From: an uncultured Lachnospiraceae bacterium
Lineage (GTDB): Bacteria; Bacillota; Clostridia; Lachnospirales; Lachnospiraceae
Assembly (NCBI GenBank): GCA_902793995.1
Contig: CADBFP010000005.1
Coordinates: 16,437-80,436, forward strand
DNA length: 64,000 nt
Direction: 5' to 3'
The notes under the pieces are model-generated. The model did not search any database. It was not told the origin of the DNA and saw only the letters and a program-made list of their open reading frames with translations. Below, one piece after another: positions 3,031-64,000 of this stretch (its first letter is position 1; each line of letters opens with the position of its first letter). Made by a program: the position numbers and the translations under genes.

Positions 3031-3046
3031 TGTTTCACGTGAAACA
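3031..3046. promoter_or_regulatory. parS: parS site 3 overlapping the predicted rsmG transcription start
   Basis: Third perfect TGTTTCACGTGAAACA. Its last base is the first base of an upstream ATG (3046). It starts 7 bp after the TATAAT box, so it occupies the +1 to +16 region. Confidence 0.96.
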
Positions 3047-3057
3047 TGAGGAGTAAA

Positions 3058-3777: not shown

Positions 3778-3795
3778 GGGACAAAAAGGAGTATT

Positions 3796-4572: not shown

Positions 4573-4587
4573 AAGAAAGGAGCGCAG

Positions 4588-23926: not shown

Positions 23927-23947
23927 ATTTGCCTCCTGAGAATCTGT

Positions 23948-24502: not shown

Positions 24503-24580
24503 AACAATTCCTCAAAAAAGAACTAATAATCGCCATCTCCGTATTTCACTTCCTCAGCTGCACAATGATTATTCACAAAT

Positions 24581-26392: not shown

Positions 26393-26401
26393 TGCAAGCC
26401 C

Positions 26402-27982: not shown

Positions 27983-28608
27983 TATTTGTTTTCCTCCTCA
28001 TCTATAAGCAATTCCGGTTCCATCACTTGGAAAGTATCTATTGAAATGTTTTGGCTAAATGGATGCACAGAGCAATTAAACTCTAATTTCTGACTATACA
28101 TATTACCAGCGATATCCGAGAATCTCAAAATCAAATCTCCTTTGTGTGAGTATAAAGCTTCTGTTTCTTCTGCCATAATCGTGATATTTAACGGGTGTGA
28201 ATGATTACTACAAAGCACAGTCATCTTAAGTGGTTGATGAATAAGATGACTATCGGTGCACCAATCAGCTTGCATATTACAGGCCATTCCCATGCCTATG
28301 TTTTTCAACGTAAGGCCAAATGACACCCAAGCCAACTTGTCATCTTGGTACCGGTCCTTAACAATTAACCTGACCTGCATGTCGGGAAATGGAAGTTGCG
28401 TTCCTTTAGGATAAACAGTCTCCCCAATTGTAGCTGAAATATAAGGCAGAACGCTTAACCTTTGAGATTCTTTGAATTGCCGTTTTGATTCTTCTAATTG
28501 CTTTTCGGCTGCAATTGCGGATTTTCTATTGGAACGCCAAATATACACAGTGGCAATCACATATACCAGCGTTATAATGACCATCAACCAATCTGTAATC
28601 ATCGGCAT
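27982..28608 (-). CDS. Membrane-anchored protein between hsdS and hsdM (unknown function)
   Basis: About 208 aa starting MPMITDWLMVIITLVYVIATVY. The ATG at 28608 is chosen because GGGAGG precedes it by 7 bp; the TTG at 28626 would lie over the ribosome binding site. It has one membrane helix (about 4-24), a coiled-coil-like AEKQLEESKRQFKESQR segment, then a beta-rich domain ending with LRFSDIAGNMYSQKLEFN. That SDIxGNxY motif is shared with the protein at 23948-24502. Its stop abuts the hsdM start, so it is part of the operon. No named family recognised. Confidence 0.6.
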   Translation of the reverse strand: MPMITDWLMVIITLVYVIATVYIWRSNRKSAIAAEKQLEESKRQFKESQRLSVLPYISATIGETVYPKGTQLPFPDMQVRLIVKDRYQDDKLAWVSFGLTLKNIGMGMACNMQADWCTDSHLIHQPLKMTVLCSNHSHPLNITIMAEETEALYSHKGDLILRFSDIAGNMYSQKLEFNCSVHPFSQNISIDTFQVMEPELLIDEEENK

Positions 28609-28609
28609 A

Positions 28610-29716: not shown

Positions 29717-29717
29717 A

Positions 29718-48892: not shown

Positions 48893-49015
48893 GGGGAGGG
48901 GAATTGCCCGAGAGTTGCTTTTTTGGCGCTCCTTTGGTTTACTCCCGTCTTTAGCACCCATATCAACTAAAGACAGCTGAAAAATCTGTCATCACAACGG
49001 TTTCCAGCTGCTTCT

Positions 49016-49258
49016 CTATTTTCGTGAAATTCGTATATGTTTTATAACCCCTTGGATCTCCGAATAATACCTGTCATTCCGCTGCAGATAGACGGATCTG
49101 GCTTCAAACTCAGAATTCATGATACGGAAGGACGCCTCTATCTCCCAACGGTCATGGTTGATCTTCACGATATCTGCCGGATCATCATCAAGATTGGTGC
49201 AAACGGCATAGAAAGGAGCATTTGATGATTTCCTCAAATAGAATGTTATGTTTTTCAA
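49016..49258 (-). pseudogene. C-terminal fragment of an IS4/IS1634-type transposase
   Basis: 80 aa encoding SSNAPFYAVCTNLDDDPADI and INHDRWEIEASFRIMNSEFE, the conserved E-containing C-terminal block of DDE transposases. No start region exists; the rest is missing. It corresponds to the part downstream of the fragment at 50686-50910. Confidence 0.75.
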
Positions 49259-49280
49259 AAGCAGACGTAAATTCCCAAAG

Positions 49281-49313
49281 TAACTCCCACAGTGGAGACA
49301 TTGATGGGAGTTA
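49281..49313. repeat. Short inverted repeat TAACTCCCA...TGGGAGTTA in IS debris
   Basis: Perfect 9-bp arms at 49281-49289 and 49305-49313. Related GGAGTTAGTnnAAGAC direct copies lie at about 49308 and 49331. It may be part of a terminal inverted repeat of the IS30 element next to it. The remaining 180 bp before the IS30 transposase hold no gene that I can see. Confidence 0.4.
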
Positions 49314-49499
49314 GTATAAGACAGAGGGTTGGAGTTAGTGAAAGACGATAAAAACCCATGGGATTAAGTTTCGGAAATGAGAAAGACGGAGAACATGTTA
49401 TACCACAAAAGGTAGAATCAAGGCACACCAAGAGCTCTGATACAGGATATGTCTCAGAGTAAATTCAGGTATGGATGGATTTAGTATGGGAAGGAAGTC

Positions 49500-50672
49500 T
49501 TACAAGTTGAGAGTAAGATCAGCCTTCCCTTTTAAGAGGGCCGGAGATTGAATAACCTCAGCAGCAGGGATAGGACGGATGCCCAAACAGGCTGGCAAAG
49601 CCGGAGGATATAGGAAGGTCATCATATCAAAAGCGGACTTTCCGCGGTAAAGGGGACGGCCCACGGAATTGATATGAGAGAATATCAAATCCACGGTTTC
49701 CTGGGTAAAGTCATCAAAGGAAGATCCTTTGGGAACAATATCGCGAAACAGGGTGTGGTTCTTCTCAATCCTCGGTTTCTGCGATGGCGTCATGGGATTA
49801 CAAAAAAACATGGGAATCTCCTTTTTTCCGTCCGGTTTATTTTCAAAAGAGAAAACATCTGAGAACTCCCCCCCCCCGTTATCGGCCAGCAGAGCGTCAA
49901 AGGTTTCCTGAATGGAAAAGCCGTTGGAACGCAGCCTGTTCTTGAGCTTGCAGAAGGCATTGGCGGCAGAAAAGGCAGTTTTGTCATTCAGCAGGAGCCC
50001 AATCATAAAGTTGCAGGTAGTAAAGTGAATGGTCAGAATAACTTTTCCGCCAATCCTGCCGATGACCGTATCCAGTTCCACATATTTTTCGATGTGATTA
50101 TCGTTAAGGTATGCGATAAAATCATCGTAGGTTCGTCCAACTTTAAGGCCGGCGGGAACATACTCGCCTTTGTGCTGCTTTCGGGGCTTAAACTTGACAG
50201 CTCTGGGGAGAGCTATGCGGGAAGCCGAAAGATACCCTTTCTGAAAATGACGGTAGATGGTGCTCCTGGAGCAGGAAAGGTCAGGAGAAGATATGATGAT
50301 CTGATTGATATGCTGCCCCTTTTTGAGTCCATCCGTGATGATCCTGTCATTGTCATAGAATTCCTGCTTATTAAGGGGGATGCCTTCTCTCGCTTCGGAA
50401 AGAAGCTGTTTGTAATAGCCGTGCGCAGCAGATGCCCGATAGTTGTAGTGGACAAAATGACAGGAAGAGGAGTGCTTTTTAGGGCAGCCATTACAAACAA
50501 AGGGAGCCTTTAGAAGGTTGGGGCATACATCATCGGTGTTTGTGTAGCTGTTACGAAACTCCATACGATGATGCTTTACTTCGTAGGTAATGGTTGTTGG
50601 ATCTTTGGAGATAAGTTTCGCAATTGCTTTGAAAGACATGCGTTTGCACAGGCAGTCTTCAATAGGCATCAT
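49500..50672 (-). pseudogene. IS30-family transposase, N-terminus truncated and probably inactive
   Basis: About 390 aa in one frame. Helix-turn-helix block MSFKAIAKLISKDPTTITYE near residue 12. DDE catalytic block: D in YVELDTVIGRIGG, D in DALLADNGGGEFSD and E in RIEKNHTLFRDIV. The first DDTDR-like N-terminal residues of IS30 transposases are missing, since the frame fuses into the upstream IS debris. A 10-G run (49868-49877) codes for the catalytic DNGGGEF, one glycine more than usual DN-G-x-EF. Called pseudogene because of the truncation; a functional protein is not ruled out. Confidence 0.55.
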
Positions 50673-50685
50673 GGTTTTCTCACCT

Positions 50686-50910
50686 ATAAAAGAGGGACAG
50701 CTTCATTTTCCCTTTCCGTCTTTTGCACAGTTCAGTCACAGGAATCCATTTGTTGTGGTAGAACACTTTCCGCTTGGCCGTAAGTCGGATTACGAAATCC
50801 TGGCCACAGTCAAACAATCTGTTGAAAATCTTGTTATCATCGTATCCCCTATCCATAACAAAGGTAGCCTTGCCCAATATGATTCGGATGGAGTCCGATC
50901 CAAAAAATAT
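50686..50910 (-). pseudogene. Middle fragment of an IS4/IS1634-type transposase
   Basis: Open on the minus strand with ILGKATFVMDRGYDDNKIFN (DRGYD is the second catalytic Asp region), FVIRLTAKRKVFYHNKWIPV and KRRKGKMKLSLFYR. The sequence then continues into the IS30 transposase N-terminus. The remaining C-terminal part appears at 49016-49258, so an IS30-like insertion may have split one transposase gene. Confidence 0.7.
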
Positions 50911-51166
50911 GACAGTCCCCGCAGCACTCCGCGAGCTTGAGAAGATCGAGATGATCAGGCGCAACAATGGGCGATACCGTCTTGACTACGCAGTTACAAG
51001 GAAACAGAAAACGATCCTCAGCTCATTTGGCCTCGACGAGAATGACATCCACAGCAACGCTGAAGAGATCGGAAATCTTCTTGCAAACAATAAGTCACTA
51101 ATGGACAGCGAAAGCCAGCAGATGGAGGAGGAAGATGGCGAGGAAGAAATCTATTTCTACGATTGA
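50909..51166 (+). pseudogene. Unassigned gene remnant in mobile-element debris
   Basis: 85 codons from the ATG at 50909: TVPAALRELEKIEMIRRNN, GRYRLDYAVTRKQKTILSSF and an acidic tail EEEDGEEEIYFYD. The frame continues upstream but merges with IS debris. It lies directly before a DUF4315-like remnant, which suggests a degraded conjugative element. Family not recognised. Confidence 0.45.
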
Positions 51167-51347
51167 AGCTGAGATCTTGAAGGTAAAAGAGGATCTCTCA
51201 AAGCTTCAGGAAAAACAGGATAAACTTACTACCGAACTCCTTGATCTGCAGAAGTAGAAACGCGACTATGAGGCAAATATGATCATGGATGCTTATCTCA
51301 AAAGTGGTAAAAGCTACAAGGAGCTGATGACCTTTCTGAATGGTTAA
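51135..51347 (+). pseudogene. DUF4315-like conjugative-element protein with in-frame stop
   Basis: Reads MARKKSISTIEAEILKVKED and SKLQEKQDKLTTELLDLQK, then a TAG at 51255-51257, and then KRDYEANMIMDAYLKSGKSY and KELMTFLNG. The coiled-coil start and the final motif are like small DUF4315 proteins of Tn916/CTn-type elements. The in-frame stop makes it a pseudogene. Confidence 0.55.
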
Positions 51348-51439
51348 CCGGAGTTTTCAGAGGCTATTTTAAGTTTTAGTGTAACTTTTTTGAAAATTGT
51401 TCACATACATGGCCGGGAATTATATCTTTACTGGCCTGT

Positions 51440-51560
51440 TCAAACTGCTGTCTGCAGCTTGACCGAATCGCCTGAGTTGCCCTCTACAGTGTAGATGATG
51501 CCATCCACCACCGTCTCAACTATCCCCACATGGTCGGGCTTCCTCACCCACTTCCTCCCT
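51440..51560 (-). pseudogene. CHAP/NlpC-like cell-wall hydrolase fragment
   Basis: Minus-strand frame RKWVRKPDHVGIVETVVDGI followed by IYTVEGNSGDSVKLQTAV and a stop at 51440. DHVGIVE and the YTVEGN turn are characteristic of the end of a CHAP domain as found in ICE-encoded hydrolases. The N-terminal part is missing. Confidence 0.6.
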
Positions 51561-51804
51561 ATAATGTCAAGTGTTTTTCCTTGAAAATCAAGGGTTTTTA
51601 GGTGTTATACCTCTTCTGAATGAGCCGAAGGGATGGGCTTCTCTTTTTGCGGTAATTTGTAATGACATCCTCTGAAATGCGATCGCGTCGAGCTATAATG
51701 CGGAATTACTCGTGGAAAACACTTTTCTTTTTCACGCATCTTTGGTATACTATAAACCAACTGACGAAGGTCAAACTAAAGCGAATTCGCAGGAGTAATC
51801 TGTT
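51560..51804 (+). other. Intergenic region before the surface-polymer locus
   Basis: No gene seen. A short direct motif (AAGTGTTTTTCCTTG, AAATCAAGGGTTTTT) stands at about 51569-51600 and might be a hairpin. A possible promoter, TTTTCT (51723-51728) and TATACT (51746-51751) with a 17-bp spacer, would start transcription of the Wzz-like gene 54 bp before its ATG. Confidence 0.45.
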
Positions 51805-53211
51805 ATGCAGGAAAATGGAAACCTTTGGAATGCCCCCGAACGCAGTTTGTCGGATATTTATTGGTCCCTCCTGGGGCGATGGAGGTTTTTTTTGTTGGTG
51901 GCATTGGTGGCGGCACTGGCTTTAGGAAGTCTTACCTTTTACACGGAGTATAAAGCATTAAGGGATCCTGAAATGATAGAGAAACAGGAATCGGACTACC
52001 GGACCGCCTTGGAAGACTATGAAAAACAGAAAACAAATATAGAAAAAAGGCTGAAGAATTTGGAGGATGAGCGGGCCCGGTTGGAGGAGTATTCCGAGAC
52101 GGCGATTATGCTTTTTGCGGATCAATATAATATCCATGAGCATATGGCATCCTATTATGTCAACACCAATTACGAGATAGCGCCGGAGCTTTTCTTCCAG
52201 AATCCCAATTATACCTCAGTAATTACCAACAGTTACCGGGCGGCTGTCAACAGGCTTGACTTGGACAGAGCGATTTCAGGGGGGGGTGATACAAAGCTTA
52301 CTTGTCAAAACCCTGTTACGGATGATTCGCTTCGGATAGTGACCACCTCGGTGGACGCCTCCAATGGCATTTTGAACTTCACTGTATACGCCGACACGGA
52401 AGAACGGATGAACCAGATTGTTAGTGCTATTCAGCAAGTGTTGAATAATCAGGAGACGCTGTTAAATCAGGTGATTGGCGACCATACTTTGGAGGTGCTT
52501 TCCCAAGAGGACAGAATCACTATTAACACAGCTTTTGGCCGGGTGCAGACTGCATTTGCCAAAAAATCGGAGTCTGTGGACAGCGGTATCAAAAGCAATA
52601 AAAAAGAACTCAAGGCCTTGGAGGCCCCGACCAATGAGACTCCCTCCTTTAAGAAACTGATTATCAATGTCCTGAAGTGGGTGGCGTTGGGGGGGGTGGG
52701 TGGTCTGATGGCAGTGGCTTTGTTTCTCGTTTTCCAGATTATTATCCAGGACAAGGTTCTTTCTGCGGGAGAACTGCGGATTCGCTATCATTGCCCTGTC
52801 TTGGGGGGCTTCTGTTTCCAGGACGGTGAGATGAAGCTAGACTGTCGTATTTTGAATAAATTGGGGATGCCCCATATGGATGCCGGGGATGAAGCACTGG
52901 AATTGATTGCAGCCAATGTGCGCTACTATATGAAAGATGCGGAGAAAGTGCTGCTGATTGGTACGGATCAGGAGGAAAGGTTAGCTGAGCTGAAGAAGGT
53001 GTTGGAACCTCGCCTAAAAGGAGTAGAGCTACAGATGGGAGGCAATATAAATCTAAATCCTGCTGCGGTGGCGGCTCTGCAAGGGGTGACTGCAATCATT
53101 TGTGTAGAGCGGTATAACAAGTCTGCGCATAAGGCTATTCGACAGGAGATGCAGCTACTGCGGGCCTTTGGTGATCGGAATATAGGCTTTATTTTAACAA
53201 ATGGAAAATGA
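51805..53211 (+). CDS. Wzz-type chain-length/BY-kinase modulator-like protein
   Basis: 468 aa. Two membrane helices: about 31-51 (LVALVAALALGSLTFYT) and 288-312 (WVALGGVGGLMAVALFLVFQIII), with an extracytoplasmic coiled-coil-rich region between them (KRLKNLEDERARLEEYSET). This is the polysaccharide co-polymerase architecture. The C-terminal cytoplasmic region (about 315-468) has LLIGTDQEERLAELKKVLEP and ends FGDRNIGFILTNGK, like the P-loop-lacking domain of a BY-kinase-type protein. It begins the polymer locus, after a GCAGGAG ribosome binding site. Confidence 0.75.
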   Translation: MQENGNLWNAPERSLSDIYWSLLGRWRFFLLVALVAALALGSLTFYTEYKALRDPEMIEKQESDYRTALEDYEKQKTNIEKRLKNLEDERARLEEYSETAIMLFADQYNIHEHMASYYVNTNYEIAPELFFQNPNYTSVITNSYRAAVNRLDLDRAISGGGDTKLTCQNPVTDDSLRIVTTSVDASNGILNFTVYADTEERMNQIVSAIQQVLNNQETLLNQVIGDHTLEVLSQEDRITINTAFGRVQTAFAKKSESVDSGIKSNKKELKALEAPTNETPSFKKLIINVLKWVALGGVGGLMAVALFLVFQIIIQDKVLSAGELRIRYHCPVLGGFCFQDGEMKLDCRILNKLGMPHMDAGDEALELIAANVRYYMKDAEKVLLIGTDQEERLAELKKVLEPRLKGVELQMGGNINLNPAAVAALQGVTAIICVERYNKSAHKAIRQEMQLLRAFGDRNIGFILTNGK

Positions 53212-53399
53212 AGTTGCTCTGGGACATCTAATTAAGAAAAGTACTGTGAAGCTGTCTGGCTTTGACTTTTCTTTGAATCTTGTTTTCCCTTCATATTGGG
53301 CGGTTTCCTAGGTAAACAGTGGTCTCCGGGGTATACTGGTTAAGATTCTTCTTGTTTATGGTCCGGGGCGGAAAATAGGATATTGAGCAAGGTAAAAAT
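53212..53399 (+). other. Degraded sequence after the Wzz-like gene (no gene seen)
   Basis: About 190 bp with stops in all forward frames. It may hold the missing N-terminal part of the aminotransferase remnant that follows, but I cannot recognise a match. Confidence 0.4.
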
Positions 53400-54160
53400 G
53401 ACCAATAATGCAAGAAATGGTCCATCCAAAGCCGGAAAAAAGTCTCCTGGAACCAGCATGTGATATTGGGTTTAACTGTTGCATGAGCAATATTGTTGCG
53501 GGCATCATCTGGGGGCAGTTACCTTATTTGGAGGAGCATATTGTTAAGGAAATTCCATTCGGAAGCTTTGCCAGGAGAAGCCTGAAGACCTTCTAATTCA
53601 GTTGGATTTGGTGGTTTTTCCGGCTCAGAGCCCAATTACTGGTTAAGCAGCTTGATTCTAGATGAAGAGGCCATGTGCCCTACCGTTCGGGGAGAGAAGG
53701 AAGCGCTTTATAAAAGGATGCAGGAAAAAGCTGCCAGATAGAGATTCTGGAGTCGATAGCAGTTTTAATGTAGAAGGACGGCCTATCTGGAAGCCTATTC
53801 ATGAAAAGCATATTATTTGTACACATGGTTTTGTGATTTCCTGCGGGAACGGACGGGGCTGGAGTAATGCCTACATCCGGGAGGAAGATTCTAAGTATGT
53901 GGGCATGTATTTTTTCCGCCGGGGGTTTGGCTTCCTAGTACAGCGGATAAATAATAACTAGCCCAATCCGCAGGATTTTCATTTGCTAGCAAGGAGAAGG
54001 AAAGAGCCGCAGTGGGCTGCGGTGATTGACGACGACACCGCTGGCAGACGAAAAGACAAGAAGTGGACAGTAATTTTTTGAACGTTGTACTAGTGACAAT
54101 AAGATGACAGCGGAAGAGCAGGACAGGGTAATCGAGATTATTCATAACTGTTTTCGGTGA
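53400..54160 (+). pseudogene. Degraded DegT/DnrJ/EryC1 (PglE-like) sugar aminotransferase
   Basis: Several frame fragments match this PLP-dependent aminotransferase in order: DIGFNCCMSNIVAGI with WGQLPYLEEHI (about 53460-53545), DEEAMCPTVRGEKEALY (about 53659-53710), NVEGRPIWKPIH and CGNGRGWSNAYI (about 53770-53880), and KMTAEEQDRVIEIIHNCFR (54103-54160). In full enzymes these are the YNYRMSN, RPIWKPMH and KMTxEQQDRVIE blocks. Stops and frame changes break it. PglE-type enzymes make UDP-4-amino sugars, the substrate of the adjacent PglC-like gene. Confidence 0.75.
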
Positions 54161-54188
54161 GAAATTAGGGGATAAGGAAGGATTCAGC

Positions 54189-54896
54189 ATGACACACAAA
54201 GCGTACGGACCCTATGAGCGATTTGTCAAACGGCCTCTGGATTTCTTTTTGGCTCTTTTAGTACTGCTGATTCTTTCACCCATCTGGATGGTTACGGCAA
54301 TTCTGGTTCGTATAAAACTGGGGTCCCCAGTTCTTTTCAAGCAGGAGCGGCCGGGCAAAGACGAAAAACTCTTTTGTTTGAGGAAGTTTCGCACTATGAC
54401 CGATGCAAGGAATGAAAAAGGGCAGCTCCTGCCGGATGATGTGCGATTAACAGGGTTTGGAAGAGGACTGAGATCTACATCCCTGGACGAACTTCCGGAA
54501 TTGCTCAACATTGTCCGGGGAGAGATGGCCATTGTTGGCCCCCGTCCCCTGCTGAAGGAATATCTGCCTTATTACACGGAGGAAGAACGTAGGCGGCATG
54601 AGGTACGTCCTGGCCTGACAGGCTATGCGCAGGTTCATGGCAGAAATACGGGGAGCTGGGAGGAAAAGTTCCAAAAAGATCTCCAGTATGTGGACAAAAT
54701 CAGTTTTTGGGGCGACACCAAGATTATTCTTGAAACCCTTGTCAAAGTTATTAAACGTTCTGACATTCAAGTGGGCAGCGAAATCGCGGCCGGAAGGTTA
54801 GATCAGGCGAGGAGTAAGACAGCTTCCGGAGGAGAAAAATGTTTCGGTATAAGGATGTTACCATCAGAGAATTCAGACGGGAAGATATTCCATTAA
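54189..54896 (+). CDS. Membrane phosphoglycosyl transferase, PglC-like (bacterial sugar transferase)
   Basis: 235 aa. One re-entrant membrane segment (about 18-41), then KQERPGKDEKLFCLRKFRTM and LRSTSLDELPELLNIVRGEM, with the catalytic Asp-Glu dyad of monotopic PGTs. GPRPLLKEYLPYYTEEERRR and RPGLTGYAQVHGRN complete the family. It transfers a sugar phosphate (often a di-N-acetylbacillosamine-type sugar) to undecaprenyl phosphate, the first step of glycan assembly. The C-terminus extends 58 bp into the next gene. An AGGAAGG ribosome binding site is upstream. Confidence 0.9.
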   Translation: MTHKAYGPYERFVKRPLDFFLALLVLLILSPIWMVTAILVRIKLGSPVLFKQERPGKDEKLFCLRKFRTMTDARNEKGQLLPDDVRLTGFGRGLRSTSLDELPELLNIVRGEMAIVGPRPLLKEYLPYYTEEERRRHEVRPGLTGYAQVHGRNTGSWEEKFQKDLQYVDKISFWGDTKIILETLVKVIKRSDIQVGSEIAAGRLDQARSKTASGGEKCFGIRMLPSENSDGKIFH

Positions 54897-55381
54897 AGAT
54901 TGAGTGGGTTAATAATCCGGAAAACAACCGCTTTCTACATTACGATTTGCCTCTGGAATACGAGAAAACGCTGGCTTGGTTTGAGCGCAATCGGGGCAGA
55001 AGGAATCGTTTTGATGCAACCATTGAATTCGAGGGAGAAGCGGTTGGTCTTTGCGGTCTTTTGCATATAGACTATCAAAATCTGAAGGCCGAAGACTATA
55101 TGTTGGTGGGAGATTCTCGTTTTAAGAGAAAGGGCATTGCGACAAAAGCAGGGACATTAAATGCTTTGTACTGTTTTGAGATACTGAAGCTGCACAAGAT
55201 GTACGCCTTTGTTGAGGCAGGAAACCCATCCCTAGATCTGGATTTAAAGAGAGGCTTTCGTGTGGAAGGATATTTGCATCAGTCTTTAAGAAGGGGAGAC
55301 AGATTTGTGGACTGCTATATTTTGGGAATGACAAGGCAGAGTTTGATTATCCCCGGGGAAGTATATTGGGAGGAGGATTGA
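54839..55381 (+). CDS. GNAT-family N-acetyltransferase
   Basis: 180 aa, MFRYKDVTIREFRREDIPLK, LVGDSRFKRKGIATKAGTLN (acetyl-CoA pyrophosphate loop, R-x-x-G-x-A) and KMYAFVEAGNPSLDLDLKRG. It resembles acetyltransferases that modify nucleotide-activated amino sugars (PseH-like) or amino acids. A GAGGAGA ribosome binding site precedes the ATG. Next to a PglC-like transferase and a decayed aminotransferase, a sugar N-acetyltransferase role is likely. The following gene starts on its last stop base. Confidence 0.75.
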   Translation: MFRYKDVTIREFRREDIPLKIEWVNNPENNRFLHYDLPLEYEKTLAWFERNRGRRNRFDATIEFEGEAVGLCGLLHIDYQNLKAEDYMLVGDSRFKRKGIATKAGTLNALYCFEILKLHKMYAFVEAGNPSLDLDLKRGFRVEGYLHQSLRRGDRFVDCYILGMTRQSLIIPGEVYWEED

Positions 55382-56301
55382 TGGAACCATCATTCATTTT
55401 CCCGCTGGGCACCTTTCAGGGGAACAGTCTTTTTATAAAGCGGGAGGATTTGCTACCCTTTTCTTTTGGAGGGAATAAAGCCCGAAAGGCGGAATTGTAT
55501 TTCAGGGTCATAGAACAGGGCGGGTTTGACTTTGTCGTGACTTATGGAAGTGGCAGTTCCAATCACTGCCGGGTAATAGCTAATGAATGCGCCAGACGGC
55601 GGCTGCCCTGTCTGATAATATCTCCCCTGGAAAGTGAAGACGGAAGTTATAATCAGCAGATGGTGCAGCTGCTGGGGGCTGATGTACGGAAAGTGCCTCT
55701 TAATAAAGTTAGTGAAGAAATAGACAGAATACTGGAAGAACTGAAGAAAGTTGGAAAAAACCCCTACTTTATTAAAGGTGGCGGACATGGTAATATAGGG
55801 ACAGAAGCATACTTGCAATGCTACAAGGAAATCCAAACTTATGAGGAAGAAAATGAGATATACTTTGATTTTATCTTTTTAGCATCTGGTACAGGCACAA
55901 CACAGGCGGGATTAATTTGTGGACAGCTGCAGGCAGGACATGAAAGAGGCATCATCGGGATTAGCGTTGCCCGGAAGAATCCCCGGGGGAGAGACATCGT
56001 TCTGGAATCTATCCGTTCCTACATGGGACGCGGGGTTGCGGAGGAACAAATACAGAAAGCGACTGTTTTTGAAGATGAGTATACCGAAGGATATGGAAAG
56101 AAGGATGCCCGGGTGAGCGCGCTTATCCCGGAGGTTTTGAGGCGGTATGGGATTCCTCTGGATGCCACCTATACAGGCAAGGCATTCTGGGGAATGCAGC
56201 AGTATCTAGAAAAAGAAAACATAAAAGGGAAGAATCTCTTGTTCCTTCACACGGGCGGCACACCGCTGTTCTTTGACGGATTAAGAGGGCGGGAAGAATG
56301 A
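55381..56301 (+). CDS. PLP-dependent enzyme, D-cysteine desulfhydrase/ACC deaminase-like (fold type II)
   Basis: 306 aa. The PLP lysine is in FSFGGNKARKAE near residue 36, followed by VTYGSGSSNHCRVIANECAR, YFIKGGGHGNIGT and LASGTGTTQAGLICGQLQAG (phosphate-binding glycine loop). The family includes ACC deaminase, D-cysteine desulfhydrase and enzymes acting on D-amino acids. The ATG at 55381 overlaps the GNAT stop by one base and follows GGAGGA. In this locus it may supply or break down a D- or unusual amino acid that is attached to the glycan. Confidence 0.75.
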   Translation: MEPSFIFPLGTFQGNSLFIKREDLLPFSFGGNKARKAELYFRVIEQGGFDFVVTYGSGSSNHCRVIANECARRRLPCLIISPLESEDGSYNQQMVQLLGADVRKVPLNKVSEEIDRILEELKKVGKNPYFIKGGGHGNIGTEAYLQCYKEIQTYEEENEIYFDFIFLASGTGTTQAGLICGQLQAGHERGIIGISVARKNPRGRDIVLESIRSYMGRGVAEEQIQKATVFEDEYTEGYGKKDARVSALIPEVLRRYGIPLDATYTGKAFWGMQQYLEKENIKGKNLLFLHTGGTPLFFDGLRGREE

Positions 56302-56302
56302 A

Positions 56303-57271
56303 ATGAATCTTTTGATTTTGTCGGTTGGAACCCGTAACAAACTGGTCAGATATTTCCGAAAGACTTTTGAAGGGACGGGCAGAATTGTTGCAACGGATGC
56401 CAGTCCTTTGGCACCGGCGTTATACGAGGCGGATCAGCATTACATCGTTCCCTCTATTTTGGATACGGGCTATCTGGAGTATATTTTTCAAATCTGCAGA
56501 AAAGAGCATATTGACGGTGTTTTGAGCCTCATCGATCCGGAGCTTAGTCTTTTGGCAGAAAATGCGGAAGCATTCAGGGCGGTGGGTATTATGACCCTGT
56601 GCAGTTCTTCTCAGCTTTGTGAATTGTCTTTGGATAAGATGGAAATGTTTCGGTGGCTGACAGATCATAGGTATCTATGCGCCAAATCCTGGAATGAGCC
56701 GGAGGGCTTTTATAAGTCGCTGGATGAGGGAGAGGTTTTCTGGCCGGTTTTTGTAAAGCCGGTGCGAGGATCTGCCAGTTTAAGGATTTCCAAAGCGGTG
56801 GACAGAGATATGCTGGATATGCTTTTTTCCGGGGAAGAAAACCTTATGATTCAGGAATATATGGACGGCGCAGAAATCGGCGTGGACGCCTATGTAGATA
56901 TGATTTCCGGTGAAACGGTATCGGTTTTTACCAAGAAGAAATTAAAAATGCGGGCGGGAGAAACTGACAAGTCGGTGAGTTTTAAGGATCCGCTCTTGTT
57001 TACCCTTATAGAATGTTTCCTGAAGGAGACTGGTTTTCGGGGGCCGGTGGACATAGATATTTTTGATATCAACGGCAGGTATTATATTTCTGAAGTGAAT
57101 CCCCGCTTCGGCGGCGGCTATCCTCATGCCCATGAGGCAGGTTGTGACCATACAAAGCTGATTCTAAACAATCTCCTGGGCCTGGCAAACCCGCCCCGCA
57201 TCGGAGAATACGAAGAAAATATCTATATGATGAAGTACAACGAGGTTTTGATTAAGAGGGGGCTGGACTAG
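56303..57271 (+). CDS. ATP-grasp carboxylate-amine ligase (PylC/CPS-like)
   Basis: 322 aa. An N-terminal preATP-grasp domain, then PVFVKPVRGSASLRISKAVD and NLMIQEYMDGAEIGVDAYVD (the ATP-grasp core). FRGPVDIDIFDINGRYYISE, VNPRFGGGYPHAHEAG carries the metal-binding Glu/Asn. The fold joins a carboxylate to an amine with ATP; substrates unknown. It starts just after the PLP enzyme with short spacing. It differs from the three sugar-transfer-associated ATP-grasp proteins downstream in being closer to PylC/CPS. Confidence 0.8.
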   Translation: MNLLILSVGTRNKLVRYFRKTFEGTGRIVATDASPLAPALYEADQHYIVPSILDTGYLEYIFQICRKEHIDGVLSLIDPELSLLAENAEAFRAVGIMTLCSSSQLCELSLDKMEMFRWLTDHRYLCAKSWNEPEGFYKSLDEGEVFWPVFVKPVRGSASLRISKAVDRDMLDMLFSGEENLMIQEYMDGAEIGVDAYVDMISGETVSVFTKKKLKMRAGETDKSVSFKDPLLFTLIECFLKETGFRGPVDIDIFDINGRYYISEVNPRFGGGYPHAHEAGCDHTKLILNNLLGLANPPRIGEYEENIYMMKYNEVLIKRGLD

Positions 57272-57326
57272 CGGGGATAGGGAAAAGCCGCTTTTTCAGG
57301 GGATGTACAGCAAGAAAGGAGATAGT

Positions 57327-58418
57327 ATGCGAAGCGGTATTCGGAAAAGATTAGACAATATATATGAAAAAGCGGAGGCGTCCTATCGCTCTATGCAGAC
57401 AAAAAGGGATGCGAAGCATTATCTGAAGATGATGGGAAGTGTTTCTGCAGAATTAAAAGAAAGCTATGAGACCCAGGTGCTTCCATACTGGAAAAAATAC
57501 CGGATGAAGCCTCCTCTTTATTGGTTCCAGCTTTTTTCTCAGGATGGCAGACACACGGATGCACGCTATATTCCGGAGGATTTGTGGTTTGGAAAAATCC
57601 TTCCGTATTACAGCAATATGTCCTTCCGCCGTTCCTATGAAGACAAGTGTATGCATCATATTTTGTTTCCGGAATTGAAACGGCCTAGGACCATTGTCAA
57701 AAATATGGCAGGACAATATTACACGGATGATTTAGAGCCTCTGACGGAGCAGGAGGCCTTGGGTTTATGTATGGCAGAGGAACGCTTTATTATTAAACCT
57801 TCCATCGACAGTGGCGCCGGGACGGGTATCCGGTTCTACGAAAGGGGAGCGGATCCCGGGACAGAAATCCGCCGCATGATTGACAGCCTTAAGAACAATT
57901 TCATCATACAGGAAATCGTGGAGCAGCATGAAATACTTGCCTCTTTTCATAAGAACTCTCTGAATACCATCCGGATTCTTTCCTTTTTCTTTGAAGGGGA
58001 GGTTCATGTTCTTTCCGCCATTGTCCGTATGGGTGGGGGAGAAGCCCGGGTGGACAATGTTACCTCTGGCGGCATGCAGTGCGGCCTGCAAATGGATGGG
58101 CAGTGTCATTCGCTGGCCTGTACGAAAAAGAGAAACTGGGTAGACAGATCGCCTGATGGAACTGTTTTTGCGGGTACAAAGATTCCTGCGTTTGATAAAA
58201 TCCTTCAAATTGTGATAAAAGAGCATATTCGTTTTCCCCACTTCCGCCTGATTGGCTGGGACTTCAGCGTAGATAGGGAAGGGGAGCCGGTTTTTATTGA
58301 ATATAATGTCTGTCCCGGCGCCAATCAAATGACCTGCGGTCCAACCTTCGGGGATTTGACGGATCGTGTACTGGAGGATGTGCTGGTTAAAAAGACTATG
58401 GCACATGCGCATAATTAA
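57327..58418 (+). CDS. Sugar-transfer-associated ATP-grasp protein, copy A
   Basis: 363 aa. The start at 57327 is preceded by GAAAGGAG; an upstream start at 57303 has none. MCMAEERFIIKPSIDSGAG-like (FIIKP lysine), QEIVEQHEILASFHKNSLNT, VDNVTSGGMQCGLQMDGQC and LIGWDFSVDREGEPVFIEYN correspond to ATPgrasp_ST. Cytosolic enzymes of this family are encoded in polysaccharide clusters and probably attach amino acids or other acids to sugars. The first of three paralogues in this locus. Confidence 0.75.
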   Translation: MRSGIRKRLDNIYEKAEASYRSMQTKRDAKHYLKMMGSVSAELKESYETQVLPYWKKYRMKPPLYWFQLFSQDGRHTDARYIPEDLWFGKILPYYSNMSFRRSYEDKCMHHILFPELKRPRTIVKNMAGQYYTDDLEPLTEQEALGLCMAEERFIIKPSIDSGAGTGIRFYERGADPGTEIRRMIDSLKNNFIIQEIVEQHEILASFHKNSLNTIRILSFFFEGEVHVLSAIVRMGGGEARVDNVTSGGMQCGLQMDGQCHSLACTKKRNWVDRSPDGTVFAGTKIPAFDKILQIVIKEHIRFPHFRLIGWDFSVDREGEPVFIEYNVCPGANQMTCGPTFGDLTDRVLEDVLVKKTMAHAHN

Positions 58419-58432
58419 GGAGAAGCGGAGAC

Positions 58433-59416
58433 ATGGCAGAGAAACTGGATGTTTTTTTCAAGCGGGCAGAGGGCAAGCTGGGCCCCCTGAGCGCTTTCAA
58501 AAAAGCCTGGTTATTAACGGACTGGGCCAAGGAACGGTATCTGTATCGCGTGCCTGTGGATGAATATTTCAAATATGAGTTTTATAACAAAAACCGCAAG
58601 GGAAGAAACAGTTTTGTGGCGGGAAAAAGATCCAGCGTTTTTTTCAATACATGCAATGACAAAGAGGAACGCCGCTTCCTGGACGACAAATCTCTGTTTG
58701 TGCAGAAGTATAAAGAATATACAGGCCGGGAAACACTGGACATGACTGATGCATCCTTTGAGGAATTTGCACAGTTTGTACAGGAGAAAAAGGATATTTT
58801 TGTAAAACCGAAAGACGGTCATTTCGGGTTGGGGGTCTATGTGCAGGATTGTGGAGAAGGAGTAGATATCAAGGCCCTTTATGAATCCCTGGTAACCAGT
58901 CCTTATATGGTGGAGGAACGCATTATTCAGCATCCGGATATGGCGGCATTTAATGATACGTCCGTCAATACGCTCCGCATTATTACCTTTGTTCACCCGG
59001 ACGGTACAGCTTCTGTTATGCCCGGTGCTCTGATTCGCATAGGGAGAAAAGGCGGCATTGCAGACAATTTTCATCATGGCGGTATAGGCGCGCAGATAGA
59101 TGAAAAGACAGGAATTGTTGTCACCTGTGGTCTGGATCAATCCGGGACACGCTGGGTTACCCATCCGGATTCCGGCAAGCGGATCGTTGGTTTTCAGGTG
59201 CCTCAGTGGGAAAAGCTTTGTAATTGCGTTAAAAAGGCAGCGCTGGTTTGTCCCAAAGTGCGCTGTGTGGGATGGGATGTTGTGCTGACGGCGGATGAAA
59301 AGGTAGTCTTGATAGAAGGAAACGGCTGGCCGGATCCGGATCTTTATCAAATGAGCGACGGTATCGGCCGCTGGTCTTTGTTCCGGGAATACCTTCGGGA
59401 AGTACAGGCACAGTAA
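58433..59416 (+). CDS. Sugar-transfer-associated ATP-grasp protein, copy B
   Basis: 327 aa. KKDIFVKPKDGHFGLGVYVQ, VEERIIQHPDMAAFNDTSVN, ADNFHHGGIGAQIDEKTG and VRCVGWDVVLTADEKVVLIEGN with the metal-ligand E-x-N. It differs strongly from copies A and C, so the three are old paralogues. GAGAAGCGGAG precedes the ATG. It is followed 2 bp later by a CapA-like gene, the first of two ATP-grasp/CapA pairs. Confidence 0.75.
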   Translation: MAEKLDVFFKRAEGKLGPLSAFKKAWLLTDWAKERYLYRVPVDEYFKYEFYNKNRKGRNSFVAGKRSSVFFNTCNDKEERRFLDDKSLFVQKYKEYTGRETLDMTDASFEEFAQFVQEKKDIFVKPKDGHFGLGVYVQDCGEGVDIKALYESLVTSPYMVEERIIQHPDMAAFNDTSVNTLRIITFVHPDGTASVMPGALIRIGRKGGIADNFHHGGIGAQIDEKTGIVVTCGLDQSGTRWVTHPDSGKRIVGFQVPQWEKLCNCVKKAALVCPKVRCVGWDVVLTADEKVVLIEGNGWPDPDLYQMSDGIGRWSLFREYLREVQAQ

Positions 59417-59417
59417 G

Positions 59418-60563
59418 ATGACAGGGTTCAGCATTGCATTTACGGGAGATATTGCTTTTTCCAGATATTTCCGGCAAGTCGGCTCCATAACGAGGCTGGT
59501 GGATGAGCCGATACGGCGCTTTCTTTCGGAGGCCCATCATGCGGTGGGCAATATAGAAGGGCCTGTAGACAGCGGGCAGGAACCTTCCGGAGGGGAGTTT
59601 GTGCACAGCACAGACATCCGCTATGCCGGGGAACTTAAGGCGCTGGGGATTGATATTTGGAATCTGGCCAATAATCATGCTCTGGATAGAGGCAGAAATG
59701 GACTGGAAGAGACGCTGAAAGCCGCGGAACAGCTGCAATGTATGACTATGGGAGCCGGCAGTAGCAAAGAAGAAGCTGAAAAATATCTTTCCTTTCCTCA
59801 GGCGGGCGGCATAGGGCTTTTTTCTCTGGGCTACGGGGAAATGCCCATGAAGCAAAAGAAAGATTGTTTTTATGCCGACTGGGATCAAAGGGAACAGATT
59901 CAAAAAACTATTCAGACCATTAAGGAAAACCACCGGTGGTGTGTGGCGGTGGTGCATGGGGGGGACGAGTTTTCGGATTTGCCCATGCCCTATACTCGAC
60001 GGCGTTATATGGAGTATCTTCAATGGGGGGTGGATATAGTGGTAGGCCATCATCCCCATGTGGTTCAGCATTATGAACAGCTCGGGGACAAGATGATCTT
60101 TTATTCTCTGGGCAATTTTGTCTTTGACACGGATTATCAGCGGGTGCAGCCTCATACAGAAATCGGAGAACTGCTTAAAATCAGCTTCCGGGAAGAAGGA
60201 TTTGACTGGACGCATCAGCCGATTTGGATCGACAGGGAAAAGCATTGTGTTGTCAGCGGAGAGACACCTCCTGTCTTCCAAAATATCACAGCGATATCCT
60301 ATGCCCGCCTTTGGCCCATGGCTGCCCGGGAAACGATTCTCAGGCATCGTCGGCGGGATTTGTATCTGCATCGGGAGAAATACGGAAAATATAGCACGCT
60401 GCTTTGGCAATTAAGGGAATTGTACGGCTGCCGGAAGAAGGAAATCCGCTGCCGGGTAAGCGGAAAGATTAAAGCGGCTTTAGTAAGGAATCATACAGAG
60501 GATCCAGGCCTGACACAGTATCTCAGCGCCAAGACAGGGTTCTCGGTCAGCAGAAAGGAGTAA
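59418..60563 (+). CDS. CapA-like metallophosphatase family protein, copy 1
   Basis: 381 aa. Metallophosphatase blocks: FTGDIAFSRYF near residue 8, VGNIEGPVDSG, NLANNHALDRGRNGL, VAVVHGGDEFSDLP, VVGHHPHVVQHY and YSLGNFVFDTDYQ. These define the CapA/PgsA family of poly-gamma-glutamate loci. The protein has no obvious signal peptide or membrane helix, unlike PgsA, so a cytosolic role seems likely. It could release a phosphate or act on a carboxyl-phosphate intermediate. It sits between ATP-grasp B and the opine dehydrogenase-like gene. Confidence 0.8.
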   Translation: MTGFSIAFTGDIAFSRYFRQVGSITRLVDEPIRRFLSEAHHAVGNIEGPVDSGQEPSGGEFVHSTDIRYAGELKALGIDIWNLANNHALDRGRNGLEETLKAAEQLQCMTMGAGSSKEEAEKYLSFPQAGGIGLFSLGYGEMPMKQKKDCFYADWDQREQIQKTIQTIKENHRWCVAVVHGGDEFSDLPMPYTRRRYMEYLQWGVDIVVGHHPHVVQHYEQLGDKMIFYSLGNFVFDTDYQRVQPHTEIGELLKISFREEGFDWTHQPIWIDREKHCVVSGETPPVFQNITAISYARLWPMAARETILRHRRRDLYLHREKYGKYSTLLWQLRELYGCRKKEIRCRVSGKIKAALVRNHTEDPGLTQYLSAKTGFSVSRKE

Positions 60564-60566
60564 GGC

Positions 60567-61520
60567 ATGAAAACAGTTGGCTTTCCTATCAGCAAAAAAG
60601 AGAATGAGTGGCGGCGGGCTCTGATTCCGGAGCATCTGGAGCGCATTAGCAACAGAAACAAGCTGTACTTTGAAAAAGACTACGGTCAGGTTCTGGGATA
60701 TGAAGACGATGCCTACGAGCATTACGGGGCTCATATGGTCACCAGGGACGAGGTATTGGCCAAAGAAATCATCTGCGATGCCAAAATCGGGGATGCGGAA
60801 TACCTGAACCGACTGCAGGATCAGACGATTTTCGGCTGGGGCCATCTGGTGCAGAACCGGGATATCACGGACAAAGTGTTGGGAGGAAGACTCACCGCTT
60901 ATGTCTGGGAGGACATGTTTGATGGAGGGCGCCACAGTTTTTGGCGCAATAACGAAATGGCCGGGGAGGCCGCCATTATGCATGCTTTCCAATGCTATGG
61001 GGAAATGCCTTACAATACCAGGGTAGCACTTATTGGCAGGGGAAATGTGGCTATGGGGGCCCTAAAGATCCTCACTTGTCTGGGAGCGGATGTGACCATC
61101 TATTCCCGCCAGACGGAGGGACTGCTTCAGCGGGAGCTGGAACGGTATAATGTGATTGTCAATGCCCTCTTATGGGATACTACCCGACAGGATCATGTTG
61201 TCTACCGGAAGGACTTGAGTCGCCTGCAGCCGGGGGCTCTGATTATTGATATCAGCTGTGACAGATGCGGAGCCATTGAAAGCAGTATTCCCACTACTAT
61301 TGAAGATCCCACCTATATGGTAGATGGTGTAATGCATTATGTGGTGGATCATACCCCTTCCCTTTTCTACAAGACAGCCAGCAAAGGCATTTCGGAAGAA
61401 GTGAGCAAATACTTAGATCAGCTGATAGAGGATAAACCCGGGGAGGTGCTGCAAAATGCCCTGGCGGTCCGGAAGGGGGAGATCCTGGACCAGCGGATCA
61501 TCGCCTTCCAGAAGAGGTAG
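60567..61520 (+). CDS. N5-(carboxyethyl)ornithine synthase-like dehydrogenase (alanine dehydrogenase/PNT superfamily)
   Basis: 317 aa. MKTVGFPISKKENEWRRALI is the AlaDH/PNT-N start. VALIGRGNVAMGALKILTCL is a Rossmann NAD(P) loop, and VTIYSRQTEG its second strand. IIDISCDRCGAIESSIPTTI is the family's DISCD block. CEOS of Lactococcus condenses pyruvate with ornithine (or lysine) and reduces it to an N-carboxyethyl amino acid. Substrate here is inferred. In this cluster its product could be a donor for an ATP-grasp ligase. It starts 4 bp after the CapA-like gene. Confidence 0.7.
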   Translation: MKTVGFPISKKENEWRRALIPEHLERISNRNKLYFEKDYGQVLGYEDDAYEHYGAHMVTRDEVLAKEIICDAKIGDAEYLNRLQDQTIFGWGHLVQNRDITDKVLGGRLTAYVWEDMFDGGRHSFWRNNEMAGEAAIMHAFQCYGEMPYNTRVALIGRGNVAMGALKILTCLGADVTIYSRQTEGLLQRELERYNVIVNALLWDTTRQDHVVYRKDLSRLQPGALIIDISCDRCGAIESSIPTTIEDPTYMVDGVMHYVVDHTPSLFYKTASKGISEEVSKYLDQLIEDKPGEVLQNALAVRKGEILDQRIIAFQKR

Positions 61521-61526
61521 GCGTCT

Positions 61527-62663
61527 ATGGATCTGGAAGATAAGATTATCGGCGGACTGAAAAGCATTTACGGTTTTTTCCGTTTTGCTGTCAACTTACC
61601 CCGGAATCTGAAAACCATCCGAAGCATTCCTGCGCGGAAGAGCTTCTATCCGGAGTATACCCGGAAAAGCGACAGGCAGATCAGAAGGGAAAACTGCCGA
61701 TACCTGTTTAAGAATAGGGAAGTGAATCCTTATTACATCAGTTACGGTTTTGATGCGCAATGCTTTCGCCGGCAGGAGGAATTCCTGACTCACAGGGATT
61801 TCTTTTTGTCCCGGGACAGGGGCAATCAGGCTATGAAGCGGACGTCTACCGGCGATTACAATTATTTAGCCCTGCTACGGGATAAATATGTTTTCTATCA
61901 TTATCTGGCCTCTGCTCTGGGAAGGGATGCGGTGGTGCCGGTGTACGCTCTGATATCCCAAAACAGGGCTTATTTCGTAGAAAAATCCATCTGGATGCCC
62001 CTGGCGGCGATTCTTTCGGAAGAAGGCGAAAAGGTGTATAAGGTTTTGGACGGGGAATGTGCCGATGGTGTTATGCTGGTGGAATGCCGGGCAGGGACAC
62101 TTCGGGTGGACGGAGAAGAAAGAAGCCGGGAGGCCTTTCTATCCACTTTCCGGGGAAGCCGTTTAATCGTGCAGCATGTGGTGCGGCAGCATGAGGTGTT
62201 AAGGCGTTTTCAGACCAAAAGCATCAGCACCATCCGGGTCATTACGGTGCGAGGAAAAAGCGGAGCCATTAATCTCTTTGCCGCTTTCCTGCGCCTGAGT
62301 GCAGATGGGGACAGTTTTGTAGACAACCGGGCCAGGGGGGGGCTGGGGATCGGGGTGGATCTGGAAACAGGCAAGCTGATGAAATATGGATTCCCCCATG
62401 ACAGTTTCGGCCAAAAACTGGAAAAGCATCCTTTAAGCGGTATTGTCTTTGATGGTTTCCAACTGCCGGATTGGGAGAAGGTAAAGAGCCTGGTGACCCG
62501 GGCCCATGAACAGTTTTATGAATTGCAGTCCATAGGATGGGATGTGGTGCTGTGCCCGGAGGGCCCCCGGTTGCTGGAAGGAAATGACGATTGGGAAATC
62601 TGTGGCCCTCAGGACACAAACGGCGGCCTGAAAGCCCGCTGGAAAGATTTAACAAATGGATAA
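61527..62663 (+). CDS. Sugar-transfer-associated ATP-grasp protein, copy C
   Basis: 378 aa. The conserved blocks are VYALISQNRAYFVEKSIW, RLIVQHVVRQHEVLRRFQTK, SISTIRVITVRGKSGAINLF, FVDNRARGGLGIGVDLETG and LQSIGWDVVLCPEGPRLLEGN, where EGN carries the metal-ligand residues. The N-terminal 100 residues are basic and may bind membranes or an acidic partner. It is followed by the second CapA-like gene, overlapping by 8 bp, the same pairing as copy B. Confidence 0.75.
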   Translation: MDLEDKIIGGLKSIYGFFRFAVNLPRNLKTIRSIPARKSFYPEYTRKSDRQIRRENCRYLFKNREVNPYYISYGFDAQCFRRQEEFLTHRDFFLSRDRGNQAMKRTSTGDYNYLALLRDKYVFYHYLASALGRDAVVPVYALISQNRAYFVEKSIWMPLAAILSEEGEKVYKVLDGECADGVMLVECRAGTLRVDGEERSREAFLSTFRGSRLIVQHVVRQHEVLRRFQTKSISTIRVITVRGKSGAINLFAAFLRLSADGDSFVDNRARGGLGIGVDLETGKLMKYGFPHDSFGQKLEKHPLSGIVFDGFQLPDWEKVKSLVTRAHEQFYELQSIGWDVVLCPEGPRLLEGNDDWEICGPQDTNGGLKARWKDLTNG

Positions 62664-63897
62664 TCAAAGGGATTATACGCATAAAATCAGTTTTTTGGGG
62701 GATATTACGCTGGACAGGCCAATGCTGAAGGCTTCCCTTCAAAAAGGGGGAGGCTATGTTTTTTCCGGAATGCTGGAGGGACTTGGCGCCCTGCTTTCGG
62801 AATCGGACTGTGTAATCGGGAATCTGGAGACGGTTTTCGCAGGGGAGGAGAAAGGCTATAATCCGGGAATACTCAGTTATAACAGCCCGGACTCCTTATT
62901 AAGGGAAATCAAAAAGCTGGGAGACCCCCTGGTGCTGGGCCTGGCCAATAATCATTGTCTGGATATGGGGATTCCGGGCTTAAAAAGAACTATGTCACTG
63001 CTGGATCAGCATCATATTCTGTATACCGGTGCCGGGGAAGCTATGGGGGAGCGTTTTCTTACGTTATGTCTTAAAGGGCTTCGGCTGGCGGTTTTCTCCT
63101 GTGCATCTATGATGAATACAAAGGAAAACGGATTTCCTCACAGCATAGAGGAATTGCAGTTTGTCAATTCCTTCTTTTCTCCGCGGGAGGCCGGGATTGT
63201 GACATGGAAGCGAAGGCTTCTTTGTTCCCAGCCTGGTAGGTGGGCAAGACAGAAGGTTTTGGACCGGAGACAAGGCAGGGGGCAGGGAATTATAAAGCCA
63301 TATTCCGACAATCAACCCATCTCTCCAGCGGCACAGGAGCAAATATCCGGTATACTGACAGAACTGAACCAGGCAAAGAAAAACCATGACCTGGTAATGA
63401 TTTGTTTGCACAGCGGCGGTCAATTCAATGAGGAGCCAGGTAGCTATACGGAAGCATTAATGGAGCAGCTGGCCGGACATGCGGATATAGTGGCCGGGCA
63501 TCATCCCCATGTGGTGCAGCGGGCGGTCTGGGAAGGGGAAACTTTCTGTGCTTATTCTATGGGTTCTTTGAATATGTCCCCCAGCGCGGATTATGTTGCT
63601 CCGGGCAGTTTGTCCGCCTATTCCATGGCGCTTCATGTTTATATCAGCCAAAAGGAAGAGAGGACTTATATCAAAAAAATCAGCTGTTCCTTCCTGAAAG
63701 CGGTGGAAGACGAATCGGCCTTTGTCCGGGTGGTTCCGGTGGCGGATTTGCATCAGGCGTCGTCTCTTTCCCGGCGGGCGGAGCTGGAAAATGATATGGA
63801 ACAGATTCTGACACGCTGCGGGATCGAAAGGAGAGAGGGAGAGCTTATTCAAAAGGAGTATGAGATTTCGTCCAAGGGGCAGCCCCCGGTTTTATGA
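62656..63897 (+). CDS. CapA-like metallophosphatase family protein, copy 2
   Basis: 413 aa. FLGDITLDRPMLKAS, IGNLETVFAGEE, GLANNHCLDMGIPGL, MICLHSGGQFNEEPGS, VAGHHPHVVQRAV and YSMGSLNMSPSADY. The last motif is S-M-G-S instead of the usual S-L-G-N. It is longer than copy 1 and has an insertion around 170-220. It overlaps ATP-grasp C by 8 bp (its ATG lies inside). No signal peptide is seen. Confidence 0.8.
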   Translation: MDNQRDYTHKISFLGDITLDRPMLKASLQKGGGYVFSGMLEGLGALLSESDCVIGNLETVFAGEEKGYNPGILSYNSPDSLLREIKKLGDPLVLGLANNHCLDMGIPGLKRTMSLLDQHHILYTGAGEAMGERFLTLCLKGLRLAVFSCASMMNTKENGFPHSIEELQFVNSFFSPREAGIVTWKRRLLCSQPGRWARQKVLDRRQGRGQGIIKPYSDNQPISPAAQEQISGILTELNQAKKNHDLVMICLHSGGQFNEEPGSYTEALMEQLAGHADIVAGHHPHVVQRAVWEGETFCAYSMGSLNMSPSADYVAPGSLSAYSMALHVYISQKEERTYIKKISCSFLKAVEDESAFVRVVPVADLHQASSLSRRAELENDMEQILTRCGIERREGELIQKEYEISSKGQPPVL

Positions 63898-64000
63898 TGG
63901 ATCTTGAGTTTCCGTATAGTGCAATAAACTGAGCTTCCGCAAGGCACCCTATTGATGATTTTGGGGCACCATGGCAGAATACGCTTAAAAAAGCAGGAAA
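63898..64000. other. Window end: no gene seen
   Basis: About 100 bp after the last CapA-like gene with no recognisable coding frame. The polymer locus may continue beyond the window. Confidence 0.4.

Follow-up and report, generated by a model that had tools for sequence, protein, structure and literature searches.

A truncated gene run with an opine-type dehydrogenase and four ATP-grasp ligases as a probable locus for an amino acid-decorated surface glycan in an uncultured Lachnospiraceae bacterium

Bacterial glycans are already known from chemical work to carry amides of amino acids and opines. PMC10609480 describes N-epsilon-[(S)-1-carboxyethyl]-L-lysine in the O-antigen of Providencia rustigianii O14, where it is amide-linked as an N-alpha-(galacturonoyl) derivative. 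For Campylobacter jejuni, PMC11800379 reports amidation of the C6 carboxylate of glucuronic acid by the TupA-like ATP-grasp domain in Cj1438, an enzyme whose own substrates are serinol or ethanolamine phosphate. Linked peptide ligases often ligate successively, and teichuronopeptides and O-antigen are among their products (PMC4431377). No genes underlying amides of N-carboxyethyl amino acids emerged from our literature search, which included the accessible parts of PMC10609480 and PMC6801904; they may be in the literature elsewhere, as subscription papers lay outside the scope. Here we describe a run of ten genes on contig CADBFP010000005.1 of an uncultured Lachnospiraceae bacterium. The window, that is the whole stretch of 64,000 nucleotides analysed, covers bases 16437-80436 of the 80436-base contig, and its right edge is the contig end. 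The run encodes, in this order (Pfam, NCBIfam), a Bac_transf/PglC protein (pglC), a GNAT protein, a fold-type II pyridoxal phosphate (PLP) enzyme, the ATP-grasp ligases agA, agB and agC, the CapA-fold protein cap1, a dehydrogenase of the N5-(carboxyethyl)ornithine synthase (CEOS) type (ceo), the ligase agD and a second CapA-fold protein, cap2. We regard the locus as a variant of known amino acid-decorated surface glycan loci, and its particular gene combination did not turn up elsewhere in the genomes searched.

With moderate confidence, we read the run as the 5' part of a surface-glycan locus, truncated by the assembly and probably acquired, whose lipid-linked product would carry amino acids in amide linkage, including one or more of the opine type (N-1-carboxyethyl). 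Priming, by loading a sugar onto undecaprenyl phosphate, would fall to the PglC-type enzyme. The CEOS-type dehydrogenase would couple a 2-oxo acid, probably pyruvate, reductively to an amino acid through its amine; CEOS itself acts in this way on ornithine or lysine. The amino component may be supplied or modified by the GNAT and PLP enzymes, and the ATP-grasp ligases would transfer the opine and other amino acids onto a sugar carboxylate, or join them successively into a short peptide. The aminoacylated product may be epimerised or hydrolysed by the two CapA-fold proteins, whose genes are each coupled to an ATP-grasp gene, and glycosyltransferases and export functions would lie beyond the contig end. 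The predicted chemistry, a CEOS-type product amide-linked to a uronic acid, resembles that of the P. rustigianii O14 O-antigen, a structure established chemically.

In a tree of 27 proteins, seven rows on the alanine dehydrogenase side separate with support of 100/100, and the window ceo falls on the other side, together with two annotated Lactococcus CEOS; it clusters with ceo of G437 and G928 (100/97). The branching order inside the CEOS side is insecure because two long-branched groups meet in the tree, as the tree program warned. In the alignment, the glycine-rich insert of alanine dehydrogenases is absent from ceo. The Arg, Lys, His and Asp motif columns of the alanine dehydrogenase/CEOS fold, which we take to be catalytic, are retained. 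With the Lactococcus CEOS the window protein shares the tree side, the length class (310, 313 and 317 residues), the missing insert and these columns. A difference is that no glycan genes are annotated around the two Lactococcus genes that were viewed, in tables that are incomplete. A plain alanine dehydrogenase is disfavoured by the tree split and the missing insert, and the alignment and tree support a place on the CEOS side.

Relatives of ceo occur in 4 of 397 genomes of the family at E <= 1e-20 and, at E <= 1e-30, in 7 of 391 genomes sampled from the class and 7 of 398 sampled from the phylum; these counts include its own genome and come from overlapping samples. A contig scan of genomes confirmed two ceo loci. 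Pairing was counted over the 13 relatives in which both neighbours of ceo are visible. Outside this count stand G853, whose locus is cut by a contig end, G1013 from the Lactococcus CEOS clade, three copies on the alanine dehydrogenase side of the tree (G051, L004 and the second copy in G889), and the plasmid matches. An ATP-grasp gene directly adjoins ceo on the same strand in six of the 13, with gaps of -61 to 129 bp. The partner is of the TupA type (PF14305) in G437, G558, G183 and G747, and of the RimK type (PF08443) in G889 and G821. ATP-grasp genes fill 6 of the 26 slots flanking ceo compared to 1 of 288 other genes of the same stretches (Fisher p 1.2e-6, which is optimistic, as the ATP-grasp profiles were built partly from those very neighbours). 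The G437, G558 and G183 loci are polysaccharide loci, in each of which a UDP-glucose/GDP-mannose dehydrogenase gene and one or more glycosyltransferase genes accompany the pair. G437, with a 64% relative of the window ceo, has a CapA gene on the other side of ceo, followed by a Wzx-type flippase; G558 has an O-antigen ligase match below cut-off, and G183 has Wzz and a pyruvyl transferase. The CEOS-type/ATP-grasp pairing thus recurs, partly in glycan loci. The pair, accompanied in three loci by UDP-sugar dehydrogenase genes, offers a simple two-gene prediction and a marker for such glycans, and the adjacency hints that a rare sugar decoration has a genetic basis that can be tested.

On plasmids, 130 records matched ceo, and the surroundings of six were viewed. 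Two E. coli plasmid records combine CEOS with an annotated ATP-grasp protein, a flippase, glycosyltransferases, an epimerase and a nucleotide-sugar dehydrogenase. This capsule-type locus (L076:13134-22588, NZ_JCAPTY010000003.1; also L008, NZ_AP027746.1) is flanked by insertion sequences and is present in 2 of 5426 E. coli genomes, on two plasmids of different sources. Viral contigs gave zero matches for ceo or cap1.

Three of the four ligases, agB, agC and agD, exceed the curated PF14397 (ATPgrasp_ST) cut-off of 31.4 bits. Like Cj1438, they are ATP-grasp proteins in what would be a glycan locus; unlike Cj1438, they are of the ATPgrasp_ST type, beside a PylC-like agA, and not of the TupA type that adjoins ceo in four relatives. 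A structure was modelled for agC. It confirms an ATP-grasp ligase fold, and its nearest folds are RimK and ArgX/LysX, enzymes that add amino acids to a carboxylate. By sequence, agC matches no solved structure at E <= 0.01. The 50 structural matches listed do not include a Cj1438-type amidoligase, which excludes nothing. In other places, genes for PglC-type enzymes, glycosyltransferases, pyruvyl transferases or flippases are found in the vicinity of ATPgrasp_ST genes, and a Lactococcus garvieae plasmid carries an agC-like gene, labelled hypothetical, with glycosyltransferase genes on either side. In G081 (L047:1506-10322) a single run holds a PglC-type gene, a 2-hydroxyacid dehydrogenase, MmgE/PrpD, an ATP-grasp_4 gene and two agC-like genes; judged by gene content, it is another putative multi-ligase locus of the glycan type.

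The first-pass annotation had proposed that the locus makes a lipid-linked glycan or short peptide bearing amino acids, perhaps opine-type ones, and that its dehydrogenase is CEOS-like rather than an ordinary alanine dehydrogenase. The tree and the insert bear out the latter. The chemistry it guessed gains independent support because the CEOS-type/ATP-grasp pairing recurs. Co-occurrence with ATP-grasp genes, which it also expected, holds for the six relatives with an adjacent ligase gene, some of them in polysaccharide loci; the other seven lack such a neighbour. A conserved set of ATPgrasp_ST, CapA and CEOS was not seen again: none of 16 ATPgrasp_ST-bearing relatives in the family has a PGA_cap gene within 20 kb on the same contig, and 3 of these 16 lack PGA_cap matches altogether (one ATPgrasp_ST relative, in G375, was not recovered on gene calling). 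Nor did the full set of three ATPgrasp_ST genes, two cytosolic CapA genes and ceo turn up a second time among the genomes searched.

The CapA-fold proteins share the PGA_cap domain with CapA/PgsA of poly-gamma-glutamate synthesis. Unlike those, they have no membrane anchor, and CapB and CapC are not in view. A search for hydrophobic segments found none in cap1 or cap2, so membrane anchoring of the CapBCA type is not seen; among PGA_cap proteins of the same class from other places, 12 of 15 have a membrane segment in the first 90 residues. All four CapA proteins near ATP-grasp or ceo genes (cap1, cap2 and those of G437 and G491) are without one, which raises the question of amino acid-modifying CapA members as opposed to capsule exporters. 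Relatives of cap1 at E <= 1e-30 occur in 2 of 380 other genomes of the class, G491 and G418. In G491 an ATPgrasp_ST gene lies two genes from the cap1 relative; the one in G418 has a hydrophobic segment and adjoins DUF3160. The surroundings of a 40% cap1 relative in G357 gave no match to the ATP-grasp or glycan reference proteins used. The G491 locus (L129:567-11062) encodes an Asp/Glu racemase, a leucine-rich-repeat Mur ligase, a Ddl-type ligase, an ABC transporter, a CDP-glycerol transferase, ATPgrasp_ST and CapA, and from these genes looks like a peptide-decorated teichoic acid locus. CapA directly adjoins DUF3160 both in G418 and on a Bacteroides finegoldii plasmid (L130:9734-13126, L131:5464-8837), possibly a second CapA context.

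Among the matches listed, the CapA family is represented by the lasso peptide epimerase MslH alone (PMC10406935), and the match may hold for any CapA. The overall MslH fold is found. Of the single-metal site residues Glu44, Asn87, His259 and His261 and the dyads Asp11/His295 and His88/Asp91, 7 of 8 are kept in cap1 and cap2. The His261 column, mapped like that of His259 through cap2, is Gly in cap1 and cap2, as it is throughout the 14 aligned CapA rows; the complete MslH-type peptide epimerase site is not present. We regard as rather improbable an elaboration, hitherto undescribed, in which three ATPgrasp_ST ligases and the PylC-like one build an opine-peptide on the lipid-linked sugar, the ATP-grasp/CapA pairs ligate and then epimerise, and the cytosolic CapA proteins serve as metal-dependent epimerases that set D residues.

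A number of observations, besides the optimism of the enrichment value, weigh against a decorated glycan with an opine. Seven of the 13 ceo relatives (G740, G672, G539, G271, G928, G845 and L003) have no adjacent ATP-grasp gene, and two of these, G928 and G271, share tree clades with paired relatives. The window ceo is 27-29% identical to the Lactococcus CEOS and forms its own clade. The ligases of the window are ATPgrasp_ST proteins, whereas the demonstrated chemistry belongs to the TupA type, and the RimK-paired loci of G889 and G821 are not established as glycan loci. The ATP-grasp label in the E. coli plasmid locus is a RefSeq annotation (strain ES7), joined by matches of 79 and 68 bits to two RimK-type neighbours; Pfam scans of this protein gave no family. 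Five other plasmid matches (Streptomyces, Enterococcus gilvus, two Lactococcus and Vescimonas) have no annotated ATP-grasp neighbour in their incomplete tables. No Wzx, Wzy, further glycosyltransferase or UDP-sugar dehydrogenase is in view before the contig ends; as it ends right after the last gene, the absence of Wzx, Wzy and glycosyltransferases carries no meaning. A priming phosphoglycosyl transferase (PF02397), as found in Wzx/Wzy-dependent polysaccharide loci, is present. The genes after pglC could equally produce a free peptide. Such a non-ribosomal small peptide, metallophore- or dipeptide-like, would receive its opine through successive ATP-grasp ligations, with pglC a mere neighbour; the four ATP-grasp, GNAT, PLP and CEOS-type enzymes could suffice for it, and near the RimK-paired ceo of G889 and G821 nothing matches a small glycan reference set. 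The 58 bp overlap of pglC and the GNAT gene favours a single transcript, those paired relatives that are best annotated belong to polysaccharide loci, and the glycan-type neighbours of ATPgrasp_ST genes elsewhere, including those on the L. garvieae plasmid, also speak against a free peptide, which we consider unlikely.

The glycan could also be decorated without an opine, if the CEOS-type enzyme yields an ordinary amino acid, acting like an alanine dehydrogenase or on another pair of 2-oxo acid and amine. The two enzymes have their catalytic columns in common, and among the named matches of ceo, alanine dehydrogenases (AlaDH/PNT) rank first in both NCBIfam and PDB. Given the 100/100 split, the absent insert and a score of 99.1 bits against an alanine dehydrogenase equivalog cut-off of 391.85 bits, this is distinctly unlikely. 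Two PGA_cap proteins, and the Mur ligase that accompanies the cap1 relative in G491, would suit an acidic peptide polymer, poly-gamma-glutamate-like (CapBCA/PgsBCA) or of the teichuronopeptide type, with CapA as the usual part of export or synthase. This is very improbable, as neither protein has the membrane segment of most same-class PGA_cap proteins and no CapB Mur ligase or CapC is among the genes of the locus, as far as the cut contig shows them. A glycan that bears an amide of an opine-type amino acid is the best reading and a moderately probable one.

Table 1. Genes of the run and the upstream Wzz-like gene (window coordinates).
Feature	Position	Strand	Evidence and remarks
Two-transmembrane coiled-coil protein, Wzz/co-polymerase-like by architecture only	51805..53211	+	operon membership uncertain
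pglC, PglC-type phosphoglycosyl transferase, single N-terminal hydrophobic region	54189..54896	+	PF02397 1e-58
GNAT acetyltransferase	54839..55381	+	PF13302 (Acetyltransf_3) 1.2e-12
Fold-type II PLP enzyme, D-cysteine desulfhydrase/ACC deaminase relative	55381..56301	+	PF00291 (PALP) 2.1e-29; PDB 1j0a, 7ysk
agA, ATP-grasp ligase, PylC-like/PRK12767 type	56303..57271	+	NF009406 479.7 bits vs cut-off 271; PDB 2pn1 3.7e-89
agB, ATPgrasp_ST ligase	57303..58418	+	PF14397 2e-34
agC, ATPgrasp_ST ligase	58433..59416	+	PF14397; structure modelled
cap1, CapA/PGA_cap metallophosphatase-fold protein without membrane segment	59418..60563	+	starts 1 bp past agC
ceo, N5-(carboxyethyl)ornithine synthase-type (opine-type) dehydrogenase	60567..61520	+	PF01262/PF05222 (AlaDh_PNT N+C); tree, alignment
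agD, ATPgrasp_ST ligase	61527..62663	+	PF14397 2.4e-41
cap2, second CapA/PGA_cap protein without membrane segment	62656..63897	+	PF09587 3e-46; 8 bp overlap with agD

The ten genes are packed on the + strand from 54189 to 63897, and the successive gaps from pglC to cap2 are -58, -16, 1, 31, 14, 1, 3, 6 and -8 bp; only 103 bp separate the end of cap2 from the contig end. Pfam and NCBIfam confirm the four ATP-grasp, two CapA, PglC, GNAT and PLP identities given in the first-pass annotation. The single-strand gene run it described stands for these ten genes by Pfam and spacing. The Wzz-like gene that it placed at the head has no family and lies upstream, 977 bp without an identified gene away from pglC. 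Its product has hydrophobic regions at residues 21-48 and 285-322 and zero Pfam or NCBIfam matches at E <= 0.001; up to E 10 the top Pfam match has E 0.028, and all are below cut-off. The suggestion of a compact or incomplete system is not needed, as the assembly cuts the contig. For agA, Pfam gives PylC-like_N and ATP-grasp, and the NCBIfam models PRK12767.1-5 are above cut-off. The PLP gene may use an alternative TTG start at 55366, and its eight NCBIfam relatives are all below cut-off. In the genome itself, rated 93% complete, the matches found for ATPgrasp_ST (three), PGA_cap (two) and the ceo-type dehydrogenase (one) all lie in this locus. Wzx-type genes lie on its contigs C13, C7 and C3, with below-cut-off matches on C25 and C10, and an attempt at contig joining connected none of these five to the end of C5, the contig of the locus.

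The G+C content of the locus is 48.1%, compared to 53.4% for bases 1-48000. Just upstream, at 49016-50967, lies a transposase-like HTH_38 gene, which we take to be IS30-type, flanked by two short frames that resemble DDE transposases, one above and one below the Pfam cut-off. The lower G+C content and these transposase pieces suggest, short of proof, that the locus was acquired. An Rfam scan of 48000-64000 gave zero matches, and promoter-like sites number 16 against 16.4 expected. Terminator-like sites number 25, on both strands and mostly within genes, against 13.4 expected (sd 3.4), an excess that we leave uninterpreted. At the other end of the window (1-5529), the gene order resembles by eye what is presumably mnmE-gidA-gidB-parA-parB, and the window may lie near a replication origin. 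Between them, at 22373-32468 on the - strand, a low-G+C stretch encodes type I restriction, specificity and methyltransferase subunits, together with proteins matching the candidate defence models HEC-05/Orf5 and PDC-S50.

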